DNA of 59,727 nucleotides from the NCBI GenBank assembly GCA_028867275.1, contig JAGWGU010000003.1, forward strand, positions 1 to 59,727, given 5' to 3'. The translations under genes and the position numbers were made by a program. This DNA is from Nitrososphaerota archaeon (GTDB lineage Archaea > Thermoproteota > Nitrososphaeria > Nitrososphaerales > Nitrosopumilaceae). Below are positions 3,741 through 54,696 of the stretch, one piece after another. Under the pieces are notes generated by a model that saw only the letters and a program-made list of their open reading frames with translations, ran no database searches and had not been told where the DNA came from. The stretch's first letter is position 1; every line of letters begins with the position of its first letter.

Positions 3741-4760
3741 ATGTCTCATCCTACAGAGCCATCGGGCAGCTCAAAGCCTGTTCTAAAAGACAAGAATCCT
3801 CATAATTATAGAAAAGTTGGCTATTCAATGATTGTAATTTCAGTATCGTTAGTTCTCATAGGCTTGCTAGTCTGGGCAATAGGTGGCAATTATCATTTCT
3901 CGGGAGATATTATGGCAAAACAAGAGATTGATTCTATGACACCGAAAAATGGTTATACACTAGTTGTCTTTGACTATACTCAGCCAATTGGTGCCAAGCT
4001 CAAACTCTTGGGCTCTGCAAGTAACTTTGATGATGCTAAAAAACTACAAGCACAATATGCTCCAGACTATAAAGGTCAAAAAGGTCAAGTCCTAATCTTT
4101 GATAAATCAATTCAAAACAATACAAATTCAGTTTCTCTTGCTGAAGTATATGCAATGACTCCTACCTCTGGGTATGATGTTGTCTCTTTTAACACTGCAA
4201 TGCCTGTTGGTGCAAGACTTGCTCCGCAAACACTAGATCCGTCACTTGGTGCAGCGACAAATGATTCTGCACGATACAGTTCTGCAAATGTGGATACACA
4301 GGTACAGATACTCACCTTTACTTCATCATTTGATGACAACTTGAAGCAGGTACTTGGCTCAAACTATAGTCCTACATTAGTATCTGAAAATATTAATCAA
4401 ATCAAGTCCATGCCAGCAAAAATGATTCCACCACCAGCTCCTGTGGTTCCAGTGGTACAAGTTAATGCTACAAAAACAACTCCAGTTCCACAAAATGTGA
4501 CAGGCGTTACAGCTTCAGTCAATGCCACAATTACTATGAATGCTACTGAAAAAGTAGCGACTAGTACAAGTGTCAAGCAAGCAAATTCGTCAAGTACGAC
4601 ATCTGGTACGGCAACAGGTGAAGATAAAATTTCAATGGCTGCAAATGTAACTGCAACTAGTTCGTCAAATCACACAGCAACCGTGTCAAATCATGCTTCT
4701 AACAATACTAAAACAATATCCCTTTCTGAAAATCTTGCAATAAATTCGACTTCTAAATAA
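3741..4760 (+). CDS. membrane-anchored surface protein with two repeats
   Basis: A 339-residue protein with a short cytoplasmic N-terminus, one membrane helix (about residues 28-48, MIVISVSLVLIGLLVWAI) and a large external part. The external part has two related blocks, about 60-115 and 132-190: each starts [MA]xx[IV]xxMTPxxGY, then [VL]V.F[DN]T..P[IV]GA[KR]L. The last about 110 residues are low-complexity Ser/Thr/Asn/Ala with many N-x-S/T sequons (NAT, NVT, NSS, NHT), a likely glycosylated stalk. The family is not recognised and no enzyme motif is seen. Confidence 0.7.
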   Translation: MSHPTEPSGSSKPVLKDKNPHNYRKVGYSMIVISVSLVLIGLLVWAIGGNYHFSGDIMAKQEIDSMTPKNGYTLVVFDYTQPIGAKLKLLGSASNFDDAKKLQAQYAPDYKGQKGQVLIFDKSIQNNTNSVSLAEVYAMTPTSGYDVVSFNTAMPVGARLAPQTLDPSLGAATNDSARYSSANVDTQVQILTFTSSFDDNLKQVLGSNYSPTLVSENINQIKSMPAKMIPPPAPVVPVVQVNATKTTPVPQNVTGVTASVNATITMNATEKVATSTSVKQANSSSTTSGTATGEDKISMAANVTATSSSNHTATVSNHASNNTKTISLSENLAINSTSK

Positions 4761-4946: not shown

Positions 4947-5831
4947 CTAGTTTCCTGCTTGGATTATGCCTTTTGTGATGAGCCACTGGATGCTTTGCAC
5001 AAACTCATCATCTGTGATTTGACCTTCTGCCCACATTCCAGTGCTATGTTTTAACCATGTTGGAATTTTCTGAGCAGAACTGGCTCCTGACACGCCATGT
5101 GGAACATGCATTACTCCATTTGATATTAAATATTGGATTGCATTGGTAAATTCCGAGTCCTGCAGATCTCCATTAGACCACATTTTTGCAGTGTTTTTGA
5201 CCCATTTTGGTATTGAGATATTGCTAGTCTTGATGGTGTCAGAATCTGAATTTATCATGTTGGTCCCAGTCAACTTGTCTGAAAAATCAACAATCACTGG
5301 GTTTCCATTGATGGTAATGATTGATGAGGAATGCTCTTCTAGTAAAATTCCGGTTTCAATATCGTATACTATTTTTGATGTGCTGTTTTCACTAGAGTGG
5401 AATGCAACTAGACTAGTTCTTTTGAAACCATTAAACTCTGTCACTAGTGGTGTGATTGATGTGTCTGACTTGTTGTAGTCAACTGGAGATGCTAGGACCT
5501 CAAGAAATGGTCTTACTGTACTAGTATCTTGGTCGCTATGTACAAAACCTGTTTCCAAGTTTAGAATTAGAGTAGTGTTTAGAACTTTATTGTTATCTTC
5601 TTGACTTTGTAATACCTTGATGTTGTTTGTATCAACCATGTCGCCAAAACTGTATGTCTGAGAGCTGTTGATGTCTCTTAATGTGATGCTATACTTTAGC
5701 ATGTCCCCGGGGCTCGCACAAATGGTGTGAGGTTTGCACGCGTTATCTTGCTGTGAAAATGCCTGCTCTGCAGATGTTATGATCACCAATACAGATATTG
5801 TCAAAATGAGAAAAACGGCTCTAAATTTCAT
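4947..5831 (-). CDS. secreted protein with two C-terminal Trp repeats
   Basis: A 294-residue exported protein: signal peptide at residues 1-26 ending AFSQQ, a mostly beta-strand domain at about 30-200, then two copies of a 39-residue repeat at about 207-244 and 256-294. Each repeat reads IP.W[VL]K....MW..G.[IL].D.EF...IQ[YW]LI..G[IV][IM]. The same repeat ends the metalloprotease encoded at 8332-9717, with both copies there too. From memory this repeat is widespread in secreted proteins of ammonia-oxidising archaea, probably a cell-surface attachment or protein-binding module. The body domain is not recognised. Confidence 0.75.
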
Positions 5832-48419: not shown

Positions 48420-50540
48420 TTACAGGGTGCAAGGAATGGTAAACGTAAAAGTTGCACCGTTCCCTTCGGTGTTGTTCTCGGCCCACATGTTTCCTCCGTG
48501 GGCCTCTATAATGTTTTTAGAAATAAATAATCCCAAACCTGTACCTGTCTCTGATTTTATTGAGAACTTGGTGAATAGATGTGGTAATACTGTACTGCTT
48601 ATTCCTGTTCCGGTGTCTTTTACCTTTACCAGGACGGTATCATTCGTCTTTTCAATGGAAATGGCAATTGTTCCTTTATCTGTAAATTTAATTGCATTAT
48701 GAAACAGATTGATCATGACTTGGGTTAATCTTGCCCTGTCTGCAGTGACAAAAATGTCTTCTTTTGCTAGAATTTGTATTTGTACATCTTTTTCCTTGTA
48801 ATTGGATTGTAGATGATATTGAAAATCTTGGAATAGATCATAGATCATTTCACGTAAGTTTATCATCTCTTTGTGAATTTTTAATGTGTTACTTTCTATT
48901 TTTGTGACATCCAAAATATTTTCTGATACTCTTTGAAGCCTTTTCCCGCTTTTGATTATGATGTCAATCAAATGAGTCTGTGATGATATGTCTCCTTTCT
49001 TACACCTGAGTGCTTCTGCTAGGCCTATGATTGGTTGTATGGGAGTTCTTAATTCATGTGCTGCCACATTGATGAATTCTTTCTGCATTTTGTCTTGTAT
49101 TTCCAATTTTTTATTTAGTATTTTCAATTCCTCAAACTGCTCCTTCAAGCGCGCTTCCCGTTCCTCGATCTTCAATCTTGCCTTGTGCATCTCAGTCAAA
49201 TCTGTTAGTGCAAGCGTTCTCCCAATTAAATTTCCGTGTTCGTCAAATAAGCTTGTACCGGTTAGCAAACTTGGAAATGTGACACCATCTTTTCTTTTTA
49301 ACCAAATTTCGATTTGTGGGACATTGTGAGTTTTTTTCCATTCTGACATATTTTGTTTCATATCTTCTATGCTTCTTTCTGCAGTATGATCATAAATTGA
49401 CATTCCAATGGCTTCTTCTTTGGAATAACCTAATGCATTTGCATATGCGTTGTTACAATCGATCAATATCCCTTCTGTTGTAATACTTCGCAACAGACTT
49501 GGAGAGTTTTCGTACAAGTTTCTATATTTTTTTTCAGTTGCAACAAGAAGTTCATGTGATTTTTCAAGTTGTCCATATTGCTGCTGTAATCTAGTTCCTC
49601 GTTCCTCAATCTTCAATCTTGCCTTGTGTATTTCAGTCATATCCAACAATGCCACTGTTCTCCCAATCAATTTTCCATACTCATCAAGCAGACTTGTCCC
49701 TGTTAACAGAGTTGGAAAAATCATTCCATCCTTTCTCTTCATCCATATTTCCATATGTGAAATCTGTTGTGTCTCTTTCCATTTTTCAAGATCATTTTTT
49801 AAATCTTCTATGCTTCTTTCTGCAGTATGATCATAAATTGACATTCCAATGGCTTCTTCTTTGGAATAACCTAATGCATTTGCATATGCGTTGTTACAAT
49901 CGATCAAGATCCCTTCTGTTGTAATACTTCGCAACAGACTTGGAGAGTTTTCGTACAAGTTTCTGTATTTTTTTTCAGCCATTGATAACTGAAAGTTGGA
50001 TTGATGCAACTTTTTGTTTGATTCCTTTATGTTTTCGTGTAGCTCAAGTGTAATCCAAAGACTCTCAAATATGGAAACATATGAGGAAACACTTGCTGTA
50101 CTGTCTGAATATAGTGAAATCCCCATGGCATCATGAGATGTCTCTTTTAAATCATCCTTTAATTCTACTATTAATGAATAAATTTTATCAACAATTAGAA
50201 TTGATATTTTACTTTGAAGAACGGGCTGCATGAATCTGATATTGAATCTGTCACACTCTTTGTTTATTTGACCTGATAATTCTTTTATTGTGTCGTCTTT
50301 TGGAGTAAGAATTCTTATTGATATGTTTTTTTCTTTTGCTATTTTTTTCAACAGATTTATCATACCCATCTTTTCTTGGCGGTGAAATGCGTTGGGTGTA
50401 TAAAACATCACCAAAACCTCCTTCTCTGCTGATTCTATGAGATCAACTCCAACTTTTAGTGCCTTGTGTGGGTCCTCAATGATTTTTATCATGTGTTGAG
50501 ATCTGTCTGTCTGATTAATTCTATGTCTCCTTGATATCAT
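48420..50540 (-). CDS. PAS-PAS sensor histidine kinase with TrmB-like N-terminus
   Basis: A 706-residue soluble histidine kinase. Residues 17-180 resemble the PLD-like effector domain of TrmB regulators (VGVDLIESAEKEVLVMFYTPN). Two PAS domains follow (about 188-306 and 335-453), 147 residues apart, and identical over more than 50 residues (KKYRNLYENSPSLLRSITTE...). Then HisKA with H495 in NVAAHELRTP, N box and the GTGLGLFIS ATP motifs. Its start overlaps the cyclase-receiver gene stop as ATGA, so they are translated together and probably signal together. Confidence 0.9.
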   Translation of the reverse strand: MISRRHRINQTDRSQHMIKIIEDPHKALKVGVDLIESAEKEVLVMFYTPNAFHRQEKMGMINLLKKIAKEKNISIRILTPKDDTIKELSGQINKECDRFNIRFMQPVLQSKISILIVDKIYSLIVELKDDLKETSHDAMGISLYSDSTASVSSYVSIFESLWITLELHENIKESNKKLHQSNFQLSMAEKKYRNLYENSPSLLRSITTEGILIDCNNAYANALGYSKEEAIGMSIYDHTAERSIEDLKNDLEKWKETQQISHMEIWMKRKDGMIFPTLLTGTSLLDEYGKLIGRTVALLDMTEIHKARLKIEERGTRLQQQYGQLEKSHELLVATEKKYRNLYENSPSLLRSITTEGILIDCNNAYANALGYSKEEAIGMSIYDHTAERSIEDMKQNMSEWKKTHNVPQIEIWLKRKDGVTFPSLLTGTSLFDEHGNLIGRTLALTDLTEMHKARLKIEEREARLKEQFEELKILNKKLEIQDKMQKEFINVAAHELRTPIQPIIGLAEALRCKKGDISSQTHLIDIIIKSGKRLQRVSENILDVTKIESNTLKIHKEMINLREMIYDLFQDFQYHLQSNYKEKDVQIQILAKEDIFVTADRARLTQVMINLFHNAIKFTDKGTIAISIEKTNDTVLVKVKDTGTGISSTVLPHLFTKFSIKSETGTGLGLFISKNIIEAHGGNMWAENNTEGNGATFTFTIPCTL

Positions 50541-51652
50541 TTTGCGTCGAGACCGAGTGTTGTTTTTACGGTCTCCACAAAATATTCTTTGCTCACAGGC
50601 TTTCTTAATATGTGACTTTTTCTTACTCCTGGTAACACACTTACAATCTCGTCAATTCCATCAAGTGCTGATACAAAAAGCATCTTGATTGATGGTGATA
50701 ATTCTCGAATTCTATTATACAGTTCCAAACCATTGACAGGTGACATTCGTATGTCTGACACTATCAAGTCATAATGGGAAGGGGTGGCAGTGATAAAATT
50801 GCGAATAGCATCATCTCCGTTTCCAAATGTAGTAACATTATAATTTTCATCACCCAAGATTGTACTGAAGGTGGTACGAGTTTCAAGATCATCATCAACT
50901 AGCATAATGTTAATTTTGGATTTTTGTTTTTGATCCTGATCTAGATCTGGTTTTGAACCGTAGCGTGCCAAACGTTTTGATGTTCGCTTAAATGGGTTTA
51001 CAAGATTTGGCGTTTTCTCTCTCAACGTATAGACTGGATATGGGAATTTATGGCCAGATGAATATGTTCCTAATTCAGTTAACTGGTATTCATTTTTGTC
51101 AATATGTAGATATCGTAATACATGATACAGATCACCTCCAAGTACAGTACCGTTTATGGGTGCAAACTGATTAATTTTAGAACACATGTTCATTGTTGCA
51201 CCAAATAGATCATCATCTTTTGAACTCAACGATTTTGCAACTTCTACCTTTCCATAGTCTGCACTAATTCTGTAGTTGATGGCAGGCAAGCCCTCTTGAT
51301 ACAATTTCGTGTTAATGATTGGCCTTGCATCCATCAAAGCCTGCAAGCAATCAAGAATGTCATCCCATTCTTCTTTATCTGTAGAATCCGAAGATTCAGG
51401 AAAATAGAATATTATCGAGTCTCCCACGTTTTTTACTATCTTGGCACCAAAGCTTCTAGATATTACAGCCATGGAATTGAGAAATATTGAATAGTATTTT
51501 CTTACTTTGGTAGCGCTAAAAATTTTAGATACCTCTTCAGTAGAATGTACAACATCTACAAAACAGACACAGTAATTTCCTGATGATGAAAAATGTATTT
51601 CTTCATATGGGATGTTGTTTGGAAATTCTATGTCATGTTCGTCATGGTTCAT
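50537..51652 (-). CDS. class III nucleotide cyclase fused to a response receiver
   Basis: A 371-residue protein with an unusual order: cyclase domain first (about 24-215), receiver last (about 245-370). Cyclase marks: metal site D33 in FVDVVHST, K74 and GD (77-78) in KIVKNVGDSI, D148 and N155 in DLFGATMNMCSKI; the expected Arg is K159. Receiver: D253/D254, phospho-acceptor D300 in IVSDIRM, S328, K351. It probably makes or senses a cyclic nucleotide under control of the coupled histidine kinase, or the receiver is regulated by it. Substrate unknown. Confidence 0.85.
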   Translation of the reverse strand: MNHDEHDIEFPNNIPYEEIHFSSSGNYCVCFVDVVHSTEEVSKIFSATKVRKYYSIFLNSMAVISRSFGAKIVKNVGDSIIFYFPESSDSTDKEEWDDILDCLQALMDARPIINTKLYQEGLPAINYRISADYGKVEVAKSLSSKDDDLFGATMNMCSKINQFAPINGTVLGGDLYHVLRYLHIDKNEYQLTELGTYSSGHKFPYPVYTLREKTPNLVNPFKRTSKRLARYGSKPDLDQDQKQKSKINIMLVDDDLETRTTFSTILGDENYNVTTFGNGDDAIRNFITATPSHYDLIVSDIRMSPVNGLELYNRIRELSPSIKMLFVSALDGIDEIVSVLPGVRKSHILRKPVSKEYFVETVKTTLGLDAK

Positions 51653-52086: not shown

Positions 52087-52779
52087 GTGAAATCGTATTT
52101 TATAACTGCAACTGATACTGGTGTTGGCAAGACAACAATCACTGCTGCACTTGCGGTATCTATAAAAAAATCAGGAATTGACGTTGGTATAATGAAGCCT
52201 GTTGCAACAGGAGTATTGCAAAAAACTGGCTTTAGGTCGTCTGATGTTTCCGTTTTGCATCATGCTACCAAAGTAAATGATCCTGAGAATGAGGTAAATC
52301 CAATATTCATGCCTCTGCCTGTTTCTCCATATGATGCAAGTAAGATACTTGATCTAAAGTTTGACAAAAAAATAATCTTTGAACAATTTGCAAAATTAAA
52401 AAATAAACACAAAATGATGCTTGTTGAAGGCATAGGGGGAATATTGACTCCACTGACAAGGGATTATTTTGTTGCTGACTTGATAAAAGATCTAGGTCTT
52501 GAAACAATAGTTGTCACACGATCTACTCTTGGAACTCTGAATCATACCATGATGACAATCAAGACATGTCGTGATTATAAAATTCCAGTAAAAGGGATTC
52601 TTGTAAATAATTATGATGAAAATGGTGGACCTGCAGAAAAAAATGCTCCAACAACAATTCATGAAATAACAGGTGTTCCAATCCTGGGGGTGATACCGTT
52701 TATCCGAGATTATGAGAATCTTGAGGAGATGGTTTCATGTGTTGAAAAAAATGTTGATTTGAAGTCTCTTATATCTTGA
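52087..52779 (+). CDS. bioD: dethiobiotin synthase
   Basis: Closes the ureido ring of dethiobiotin from DAPA, CO2 and ATP. 230 residues. The P-loop is TGVGKTT (residues 11-17), then MKPVATG and a VEGIGGILTP region. GTG start. It is on the plus strand, away from bioF-B-A, separated by the cyclase and kinase genes. It overlaps the convergent gene at 52769 by 11 bases. Confidence 0.9.
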   Translation: MKSYFITATDTGVGKTTITAALAVSIKKSGIDVGIMKPVATGVLQKTGFRSSDVSVLHHATKVNDPENEVNPIFMPLPVSPYDASKILDLKFDKKIIFEQFAKLKNKHKMMLVEGIGGILTPLTRDYFVADLIKDLGLETIVVTRSTLGTLNHTMMTIKTCRDYKIPVKGILVNNYDENGGPAEKNAPTTIHEITGVPILGVIPFIRDYENLEEMVSCVEKNVDLKSLIS

Positions 52780-53359
52780 AAATTTTCAACTTGGATTGTT
52801 TTTTGCCTGATGTAAAACCAATCAAGTCGTTTAGCATGTTTGCAAATGTCATAGACCCCTTGAGAGTATATGTCTTGGTATCAAGTTTCATGTCGTCCTC
52901 AAGAACAACCCATATGTTGTCTGGATTTGGTTGCACTTTCTTCATGCTCTCAATCTGAGATTTTATGACGTTGATATCATTTGTTTTTGGAAAAGAAATT
53001 ACAATGACATCCTGTGGTGATGTCCCAAGTGTTATAGTATCTGGAACGGCAATGTCGATTTCAACTGACTGGAATGTGGTCTTTCTCTTGCTTGGAATCA
53101 TGGCCATTGTAAGCAAATAGTGTGACAATCCCTCTGCAATTGTGACACGAGTATCAGGTTTTATCTCGCCAATTTTTTCTATTTTTGATATGCATTTCTC
53201 AAAAATACTTTTTATGATCTCTGCGCTTTCGCCCTGTACTATATCTGAAAGTATCCTTTGTTCTTCGTATTCTGAAATGACACTGTATAGAATATCACTT
53301 GGTTCCAAGAGATCACTGCTTGGTTTATTGTAAATTAAAGTTGTGATTAAAAATGGCAT
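52769..53359 (-). CDS. conserved hypothetical protein
   Basis: A 196-residue soluble acidic protein with mixed helix/strand pattern: KPSSDLLEPSDILYSVISEYEEQRILSDIVQGE, IEKIGEIKPDTRVTIAEGLSHYLLTMAMIPSK, then DVIVISFPKTNDINVIKSQIESMKK. ATG 53359 chosen; TTG 53362 would add one residue. No domain assigned. Divergent from the PII-cyclase gene, starts 60 bases apart. Confidence 0.6.
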   Translation of the reverse strand: MPFLITTLIYNKPSSDLLEPSDILYSVISEYEEQRILSDIVQGESAEIIKSIFEKCISKIEKIGEIKPDTRVTIAEGLSHYLLTMAMIPSKRKTTFQSVEIDIAVPDTITLGTSPQDVIVISFPKTNDINVIKSQIESMKKVQPNPDNIWVVLEDDMKLDTKTYTLKGSMTFANMLNDLIGFTSGKKQSKLKIFKI

Positions 53360-53418
53360 CAAATGTAAATTAAAAAACTAGTTTAAATTACTATGTGTAA
53401 TAAATAGTCTAGACTAGG

Positions 53419-54696
53419 ATGATACGAATCGAGGCCGAACTGCCAAGAAATGACCTCACTGCTGTAACTGATGCGCTTGGCATGATGGGAATTAACGTGA
53501 ATATTGTCAAGGTAAAGAGTCGTAGCAATACTGTCGGCTCTGAAGTCCATGCTGCAAAGGGCACTGGCATGTATAGATCTGAATTTAGGGACAAGTTCAT
53601 ACTGCAAACAACTGTGTCTGCTAACTCCGAACATGACGTAATTGAGGTAATACGATCAAACTCAAACACTGGTAAAATCTCAATATTTCCAATCTCTCGC
53701 ATAATTGACATTAGTTCCGGAGTTGAAAATGAACAAGGCCTAGCACTGAGTGAATATGATAGTGTTATACTTATTGCTGCAAATAAACAAAAAACATCTT
53801 TTCCTTTTGGGCTTACAACAAGCAAAGTAAAACTTGAGCCACAGGCAGTAGAGGGAGAAAAGGGATACTATGATGTCATAGAAAAGAAATTTGTTCCTCT
53901 TGATAATTTGGAATCTGTAATTGCTCAGGTAAAGCCTGTTGAAAAATTTCAAATCCTGACCCCTGATGATGAGTTTTTGATTCAAAGTCTAACTAGGATA
54001 CAGAGAAACTTTTCATTATACAAGAGAAAGCAAAGTGATTCTTATTCTCAAGCATTTCTCAAGTACATTTCAAACAGATTCTTGAGCCTGTGGCCTGAAA
54101 ACGAGATCAATACCGCTGTTCTATATGTGGATATAGTAGGGTCTACCAAAATTGCAACAACGTTAAACTCTGACGATCTCTCTGGTTTGATAAAGGTCTT
54201 CTCTGAAGAAATGTCTGTTGTGGTATCAAAACACGCAGGCTTTGTCTTGAAATATACTGGTGATGCAGTTATTGCATTTTTCCCAGAATTAAAAGACTTT
54301 GGAAACATGGCAGAAAATGCTGTACGCTGTGCTAGATCCATGAACATGCTGATAACACATTCACTAAATCCCATGTTTGCAAGTTTTGGATTGCCAAAAA
54401 TCCATATACGAATTGGAATTGATGTTGGCAAGAACCGAATTGTAGTCCTTGGCTCAGAGCCTGATTTGATAGGACACAGCATTACAATTGCTTCAAAAAT
54501 CTTGCCTCTTGCGCAACCAAACCAGATGACAATAGGTGAGGAAGCCTACAAGATGCTGTCACCTGAAATGGCTTCACAGTTTATGAAAATTGATCCTCAA
54601 GACAAGAGATGGAACTATAACCACCCGACTACTGGCAAAATATATCCAATTTACTTTTCAATTCCTGTGATGCAGATATCAAATAGGGAAAGCTAG
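53419..54696 (+). CDS. PII-like domain fused to a class III nucleotide cyclase
   Basis: A 425-residue soluble protein. Residues 1-112 follow the PII (GlnB) pattern: MIRIEAELPRNDLTAVTDALGMMGI, a T-loop-like insert with HAAKGTGMYRSEF, FILQTTVSANSEHDVIEVIR, and TGKISIFPISRIIDISSG. A linker (about 113-225) follows, then a cyclase domain (about 230-400): D238 in VDIVGST, K278 and GD (281-282) in KYTGDAV, D349 in DLIGHSITIASK. The usual Asn and Arg are T356 and K360, so activity may be weak or changed. It would link nitrogen/energy sensing to a cyclic nucleotide. It ends 2 bases from the convergent purE. Confidence 0.8.
   Translation: MIRIEAELPRNDLTAVTDALGMMGINVNIVKVKSRSNTVGSEVHAAKGTGMYRSEFRDKFILQTTVSANSEHDVIEVIRSNSNTGKISIFPISRIIDISSGVENEQGLALSEYDSVILIAANKQKTSFPFGLTTSKVKLEPQAVEGEKGYYDVIEKKFVPLDNLESVIAQVKPVEKFQILTPDDEFLIQSLTRIQRNFSLYKRKQSDSYSQAFLKYISNRFLSLWPENEINTAVLYVDIVGSTKIATTLNSDDLSGLIKVFSEEMSVVVSKHAGFVLKYTGDAVIAFFPELKDFGNMAENAVRCARSMNMLITHSLNPMFASFGLPKIHIRIGIDVGKNRIVVLGSEPDLIGHSITIASKILPLAQPNQMTIGEEAYKMLSPEMASQFMKIDPQDKRWNYNHPTTGKIYPIYFSIPVMQISNRES

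Follow-up and report, generated by a model that had tools for sequence, protein, structure and literature searches.

PII proteins are known to use their T-loop to act on targets that are separate proteins. The GlnK1 and GlnK2 proteins of the Nitrosopumilaceae are free-standing members of this superfamily of about 110 amino acids, and the same ammonia-oxidising archaea (AOA) contain class III nucleotide cyclases of a Lys type that consist of a linker module and a cyclase domain. A modular arrangement of sensor and cyclase is found in CyaB, CyaC and the photoactivated cyclases. Within the PII superfamily a link to cyclic nucleotides has been described for SbtB, a PII-like protein that binds cAMP in cyanobacteria (PMC10117731); SbtB receives cAMP and has no cyclase fused to it. 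The gene analyzed here joins a PII domain to a class III cyclase. It resembles Nitrosopumilaceae GlnK1/GlnK2 in sequence (33–43% identity), in its short B-loop, in the HA(A/S)KG motif and in an Asp in place of R101, but its PII domain is followed by a linker and cyclase and groups in a separate clade (99/97). The linker module, the cyclase domain and a D-K-D-D-T-K active site are shared with the Lys-type AOA cyclases, which lack the PII domain. CyaB, CyaC and the photoactivated cyclases share the modular layout and were the top hits by sequence in the PDB (E = 5e-10 to 1e-9), whereas the sensor in the fusion is PII and Thr and Lys replace Asn and Arg. No description of a PII-cyclase fusion was found in the open-access literature, in searches of which several were loose; both domains are of known kinds and their union was not found in open-access papers, but, the genome records being public, domain databases may show the architecture.

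The window, a stretch of 59,727 nucleotides, contains the fusion gene at 53419–54696 on the forward strand as a single open frame of 425 amino acids plus stop. The GlnK-type PII domain (aa 1–108; 53419–53742, +) carries an altered T-loop motif, VHAAKGT(G/E), together with K59 (equivalent to K58) and G85-K86 (equivalent to G89-K90). It is followed by a linker module (aa 109–205; 53743–54033, +) with the pattern FPFG...GYYD...KKF and then a helix, which is common to PII-less paralogues, and by the class III nucleotide cyclase domain (about aa 206–413; 54034–54657, +), in which D238, K278, D282 and D349 are kept and T356 and K360 stand for Asn and Arg. Upstream, an AT-rich gap of 56 bp (53363–53418), read directly from the sequence, separates the fusion from the divergent gene u197, and TTTAAATT, ~30 bp upstream of the fusion ATG, is a possible TATA box. 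The left border of the fusion site is formed by u197 (52769–53362, −), a conserved 197-aa ORF with no significant Pfam family, and the right border by a convergent purE-like gene (PF00731; 54698–55285, −). A bioD-like gene of the dethiobiotin synthetase type (52087–52779, +) also belongs to the conserved neighbourhood. The purE gene adjoins the fusion in every relative examined, and bioD and u197 usually occupy the opposite flank; five genomes have an intact u197-purE junction that lacks the fusion gene.

The window also contains a class III cyclase-like-REC gene (50537–51652, −) beside a PAS histidine kinase gene (48420–50540, −). The encoded cyclase-REC protein keeps the catalytic Asn and has Lys for Arg, and the pair is a possible two-component-controlled cyclase. 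These two genes were rejected as operon partners of the fusion since they were not seen at the syntenic loci of relatives, where the cyclase-REC matches lie within the fusion gene itself.

Candidatus Nitrosotalea comprises ammonia-oxidising archaea of acid soils. The fusion, full-length or partial, was present in 24 of 37 Ca. Nitrosotalea genomes and in none of the 363 genomes sampled elsewhere in the order. The survey of relatives proposed in the first-pass annotation, run in the order Nitrososphaerales, thus placed the architecture in Ca. Nitrosotalea only. Named Ca. Nitrosotalea records, including Ca. N. devanaterra LN890280, also contained it in a scan with two short peptide patterns, which is biased to close relatives. 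An assembly artefact was excluded by a full-length fusion ORF in 22 further genomes, with a disrupted copy in one draft genome. In the draft of Nitrosotalea sp. TS (L057:3400-4740) the ORF is interrupted by frame changes, reflecting either a pseudogene or a sequencing error. Viral spread was likewise rejected, with no relative in viral contigs. Twenty orthologues were 71–97% identical to the window protein, and PII, linker and cyclase each had a dN/dS of about 0.03, based on partly saturated dS values near 0.9–1.2. These ratios point to strong purifying selection across all of the fusion.

The presence of a PII domain and a class III cyclase in one ORF, as first annotated, was confirmed, and both domain identities proved right. 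The Pfam check did not by itself establish the first of them: the isolated N-terminus (aa 1–112) matched PF00543 at aa 4–99 with E = 0.01 and 16.6 bits, below the cut-off of 25, and the whole protein scored 13 bits against the same cut-off, so that other tests were needed. Residues 1–112 share 43% identity with GlnK2 and 33% with GlnK1 of the same genome, which are tandem PF00543 members (GlnK1, E = 6.8e-14; GlnK2, E = 6.4e-13) adjoining an ammonium transporter gene (amt1; PF00909, E = 7.6e-114); by this comparison the fusion PII is a remote PF00543 member linked to the family via GlnK2 as intermediate. In profile-profile comparison the fusion N-termini matched canonical PII of deeper relatives with a probability of 97.3% (E = 1.6e-11), and the fusion linker, used as a control against the same profile, gave 0.1%. 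The predicted model had a mean pLDDT of 42 over the whole protein and 74–86 in the PII core; it is trustworthy for the PII core only, the cyclase part being of low confidence. All 50 matches shown for this model in a Foldseek search of the PDB were PII-family (E from 5e-6), and the model, these matches and the profile comparison gave a ferredoxin-like beta-alpha-beta-beta-alpha-beta PII fold. Seven fusion PII domains formed one clade (99/97) within the Nitrosopumilaceae GlnK clade of a maximum-likelihood tree, which does not settle their exact sister group there, and this placement points to descent shared with Amt-linked GlnK. With GlnK2 identity, profile comparison, Foldseek and tree in agreement, the N-terminus was assigned to PII. 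Another ferredoxin-like or ACT domain, the outcome that would have contradicted the annotation, was excluded by the tree, the profile comparison and the Foldseek search, in which PII structures were returned instead among the matches shown.

The distribution of the fusion follows that of GlnK1/2. Among near-complete genomes (at least 90% complete, n = 19), both were present in 15, neither in four, and there was no mixed case (Fisher p = 2.6e-4, uncorrected for kinship). Mixed cases were restricted to three incomplete assemblies (G007, G029, G033); purE was not found in G007 and G029, so the fusion site itself is probably missing from those two. The four near-complete genomes without the fusion (G012, G014, G021, G034) lack GlnK1/2 and keep AmoA, and loss of ammonia oxidation was therefore rejected as the cause of the joint absence. 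Each of the four has one Amt, of a 515-aa type, which indicates that the Amt1 genes were lost as well; the position of this type near amoA suggests that it is Amt2. For N. devanaterra, a low-affinity role has been described for amt1a and amt1b and a high-affinity one for amt2 (PMC4836417). The four genomes would have lost their low-affinity ammonium module on several independent occasions. A tree built from neighbouring genes requires four label changes to account for genomes without the fusion, at least three of them forced by well-supported branches, which suggests that absence arose at least 3–4 times. A distance of roughly 70–130 kb separates the fusion from the GlnK locus where they share a contig, and the purE site is intact in genomes that lack the gene, so one deletion would not explain the joint absence, which could come from shared ecology and not from physical coupling. 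Repeated loss together with the low-affinity ammonium uptake genes suggests that the fusion responds to an ammonium signal by making a second messenger. The original proposal that nitrogen or energy state is converted into a cyclic nucleotide gains from this repeated joint absence with the Amt1-GlnK module; the conversion itself is a step that we infer.

With a probability of about 0.55, we consider that the fusion works in signalling within the low-affinity ammonium system of Ca. Nitrosotalea, as a PII-regulated cyclase. The PII domain would read ammonium or nitrogen status through a ligand of its own, through mixed trimers with GlnK1/GlnK2 or by docking to Amt1, and the class III cyclase domain would receive its change of state by way of the linker and helix. 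The cyclase, which needs to be a dimer to function, would thereby be switched in its formation of a cyclic nucleotide, most likely cAMP because of the Lys/Asp base-selecting pair. We infer what ligand is bound, in which direction the cyclase is regulated, and what the product and receptor are. PII proteins are trimers and class III cyclases are dimers, so the complex must reconcile three-fold with two-fold symmetry; two PII trimers could be bridged by three cyclase dimers, or mixed trimers could form with GlnK. Weighing against a PII-regulated cyclase are the changed Asn and Arg, the lack of PF00027 in 25 Nitrosotalea genomes, the altered PII ligand residues and the low-confidence cyclase model.

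Alignment with canonical PII showed that the fusion PII lacks Q39, R101 and R103 and has a B-loop ~4 residues shorter, while equivalents of K58 (K59) and G89-K90 (G85-K86) are kept. Only the K58 and K90 equivalents therefore remain of the canonical ATP/2-oxoglutarate set (Q39, K58, B-loop with K90, R101, R103). The first-pass annotation had the domain sensing ATP/ADP and 2-oxoglutarate, and with Q39, R101, R103 and four B-loop residues lost, the residues lend this no support. The uridylylation-position Tyr51 is absent from the fusion T-loop, with Met in that column; the adjoining Tyr52 is His in one orthologue. Nearly the same altered site was present in all Nitrosopumilaceae Amt-type GlnK sampled, and RxR and GDGK are retained in the PII of deeper members of the order. 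The Amt-type GlnK proteins themselves (L032:3899-4228 and 4268-4606, among others) have a short B-loop, have lost R101/R103 and carry the T-loop motif HA(A/S)KG(T/S); judged by these residues, the group is an unusual PII subfamily. Since most canonical ligand residues are missing and the T-loop HAAKGT is kept, the fusion PII might instead serve for docking or localisation and have no ligand itself; it would bring the cyclase to the membrane through mixed trimers with GlnK1/2 or binding to Amt1. Joint absence with amt1-glnK1-glnK2 would also fit such a role. The K58 and K90 equivalents are, however, invariant and the same altered site occurs in the GlnK relatives, and we regard a purely docking PII as rather unlikely.

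The cyclase half matched PF00211 (Guanylate_cyc) at aa 231–389 (E = 2.9e-10; 40.5 bits against a cut-off of 21.9), and the residue positions first given for it (D238, K278, D349, T356 and K360) were correct, as was D282. Class III cyclases depend on residues for metal binding, base selection and the transition state. The metal Asp residues D238 and D282 and the base-selecting K278 and D349 were invariant in 20 orthologues. At the transition-state positions, T356 and K360 are found instead of Asn and Arg; K360 was invariant in the 20 orthologues and T356 nearly so, with Ser in one. In the search across Nitrososphaerales, cyclases fell into two sets, one with the canonical Asn...Arg and the other, the Lys type, with D-K-D-D-(N/S/T)-K. 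Members of the Lys type invariably carry Lys for Arg; several keep Asn, and Ser or Thr often takes its place. The fusion cyclase is a member of the Lys-type set. Metal and base residues are kept in the Lys-type AOA cyclases at L061-L068, L099-L104 and L168-L181. Conservation of all but the Asn and Arg, with Lys for Arg, argues for a variant active site. Given Thr for Asn and Lys for Arg, catalysis by the fusion is no more than plausible.

A PII-less paralogue in the window genome (G000 C43, L033:6154-7068) is 52% identical over aa 126–418, which comprise linker and cyclase; it lies beside a KaiC/GvpD-like ATPase gene (L033:7075-8484). Relatives that have this linker and cyclase but no PII domain are more widespread than the fusion, so the PII part was probably joined to the N-terminus of an existing linker-cyclase.

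A CRP-type receptor for the cyclic nucleotide was rejected, as no CRP-type cNMP-binding domain (PF00027) was found in 25 Nitrosotalea genomes. The window genome contains an SbtA-SbtB pair, a bicarbonate transporter with its PII-like regulator (L112:4208-5311 and 5317-5634; G000 C54). As SbtB was found in only 3 of 37 Nitrosotalea genomes, it was rejected as a general cAMP receptor. Neither type of receptor thus occurs wherever the fusion does. The missing CRP-type receptor and the replacement of Asn by Thr and Arg by Lys in essentially all orthologues would both be expected if the cyclase were dead or nearly so and served as an NTP-binding, dimerising regulatory domain acting by contacts, for example with GlnK/Amt1 or another cyclase. 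We think this unlikely, because no variation occurs in the metal Asp pair, the base-selecting Lys and Asp or K360, and because D-K-D-D-(N/S/T)-K runs through many AOA cyclases, several of them with Asn, and resembles a conserved variant and not decay. A chance or neutral joining of uncoupled halves would suit a gene that is confined to one genus, dispensable and lost several times, but is very improbable given a dN/dS of about 0.03, invariant residues in each half and losses that coincide with those of the GlnK module.

Returning to the PII-regulated cyclase, a fuller version, to which we would give somewhat less than even odds, has a Lys-type cyclase gated by a domain that derives from GlnK and whose ligand site is non-canonical, so that Amt1/GlnK status would pass through a cyclic nucleotide to a non-CRP receptor. 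To our knowledge, little is understood of ammonium sensing by ammonia-oxidising archaea, and their cAMP signalling is essentially uncharacterised. The fusion, as one gene in a cultured genus, makes both questions testable, and the repeated joint absence of the fusion, Amt1 and GlnK1/2 provides a concrete functional hypothesis. If it is true, Amt1/GlnK ammonium status would be linked directly to a cyclic nucleotide in ammonia-oxidising archaea.
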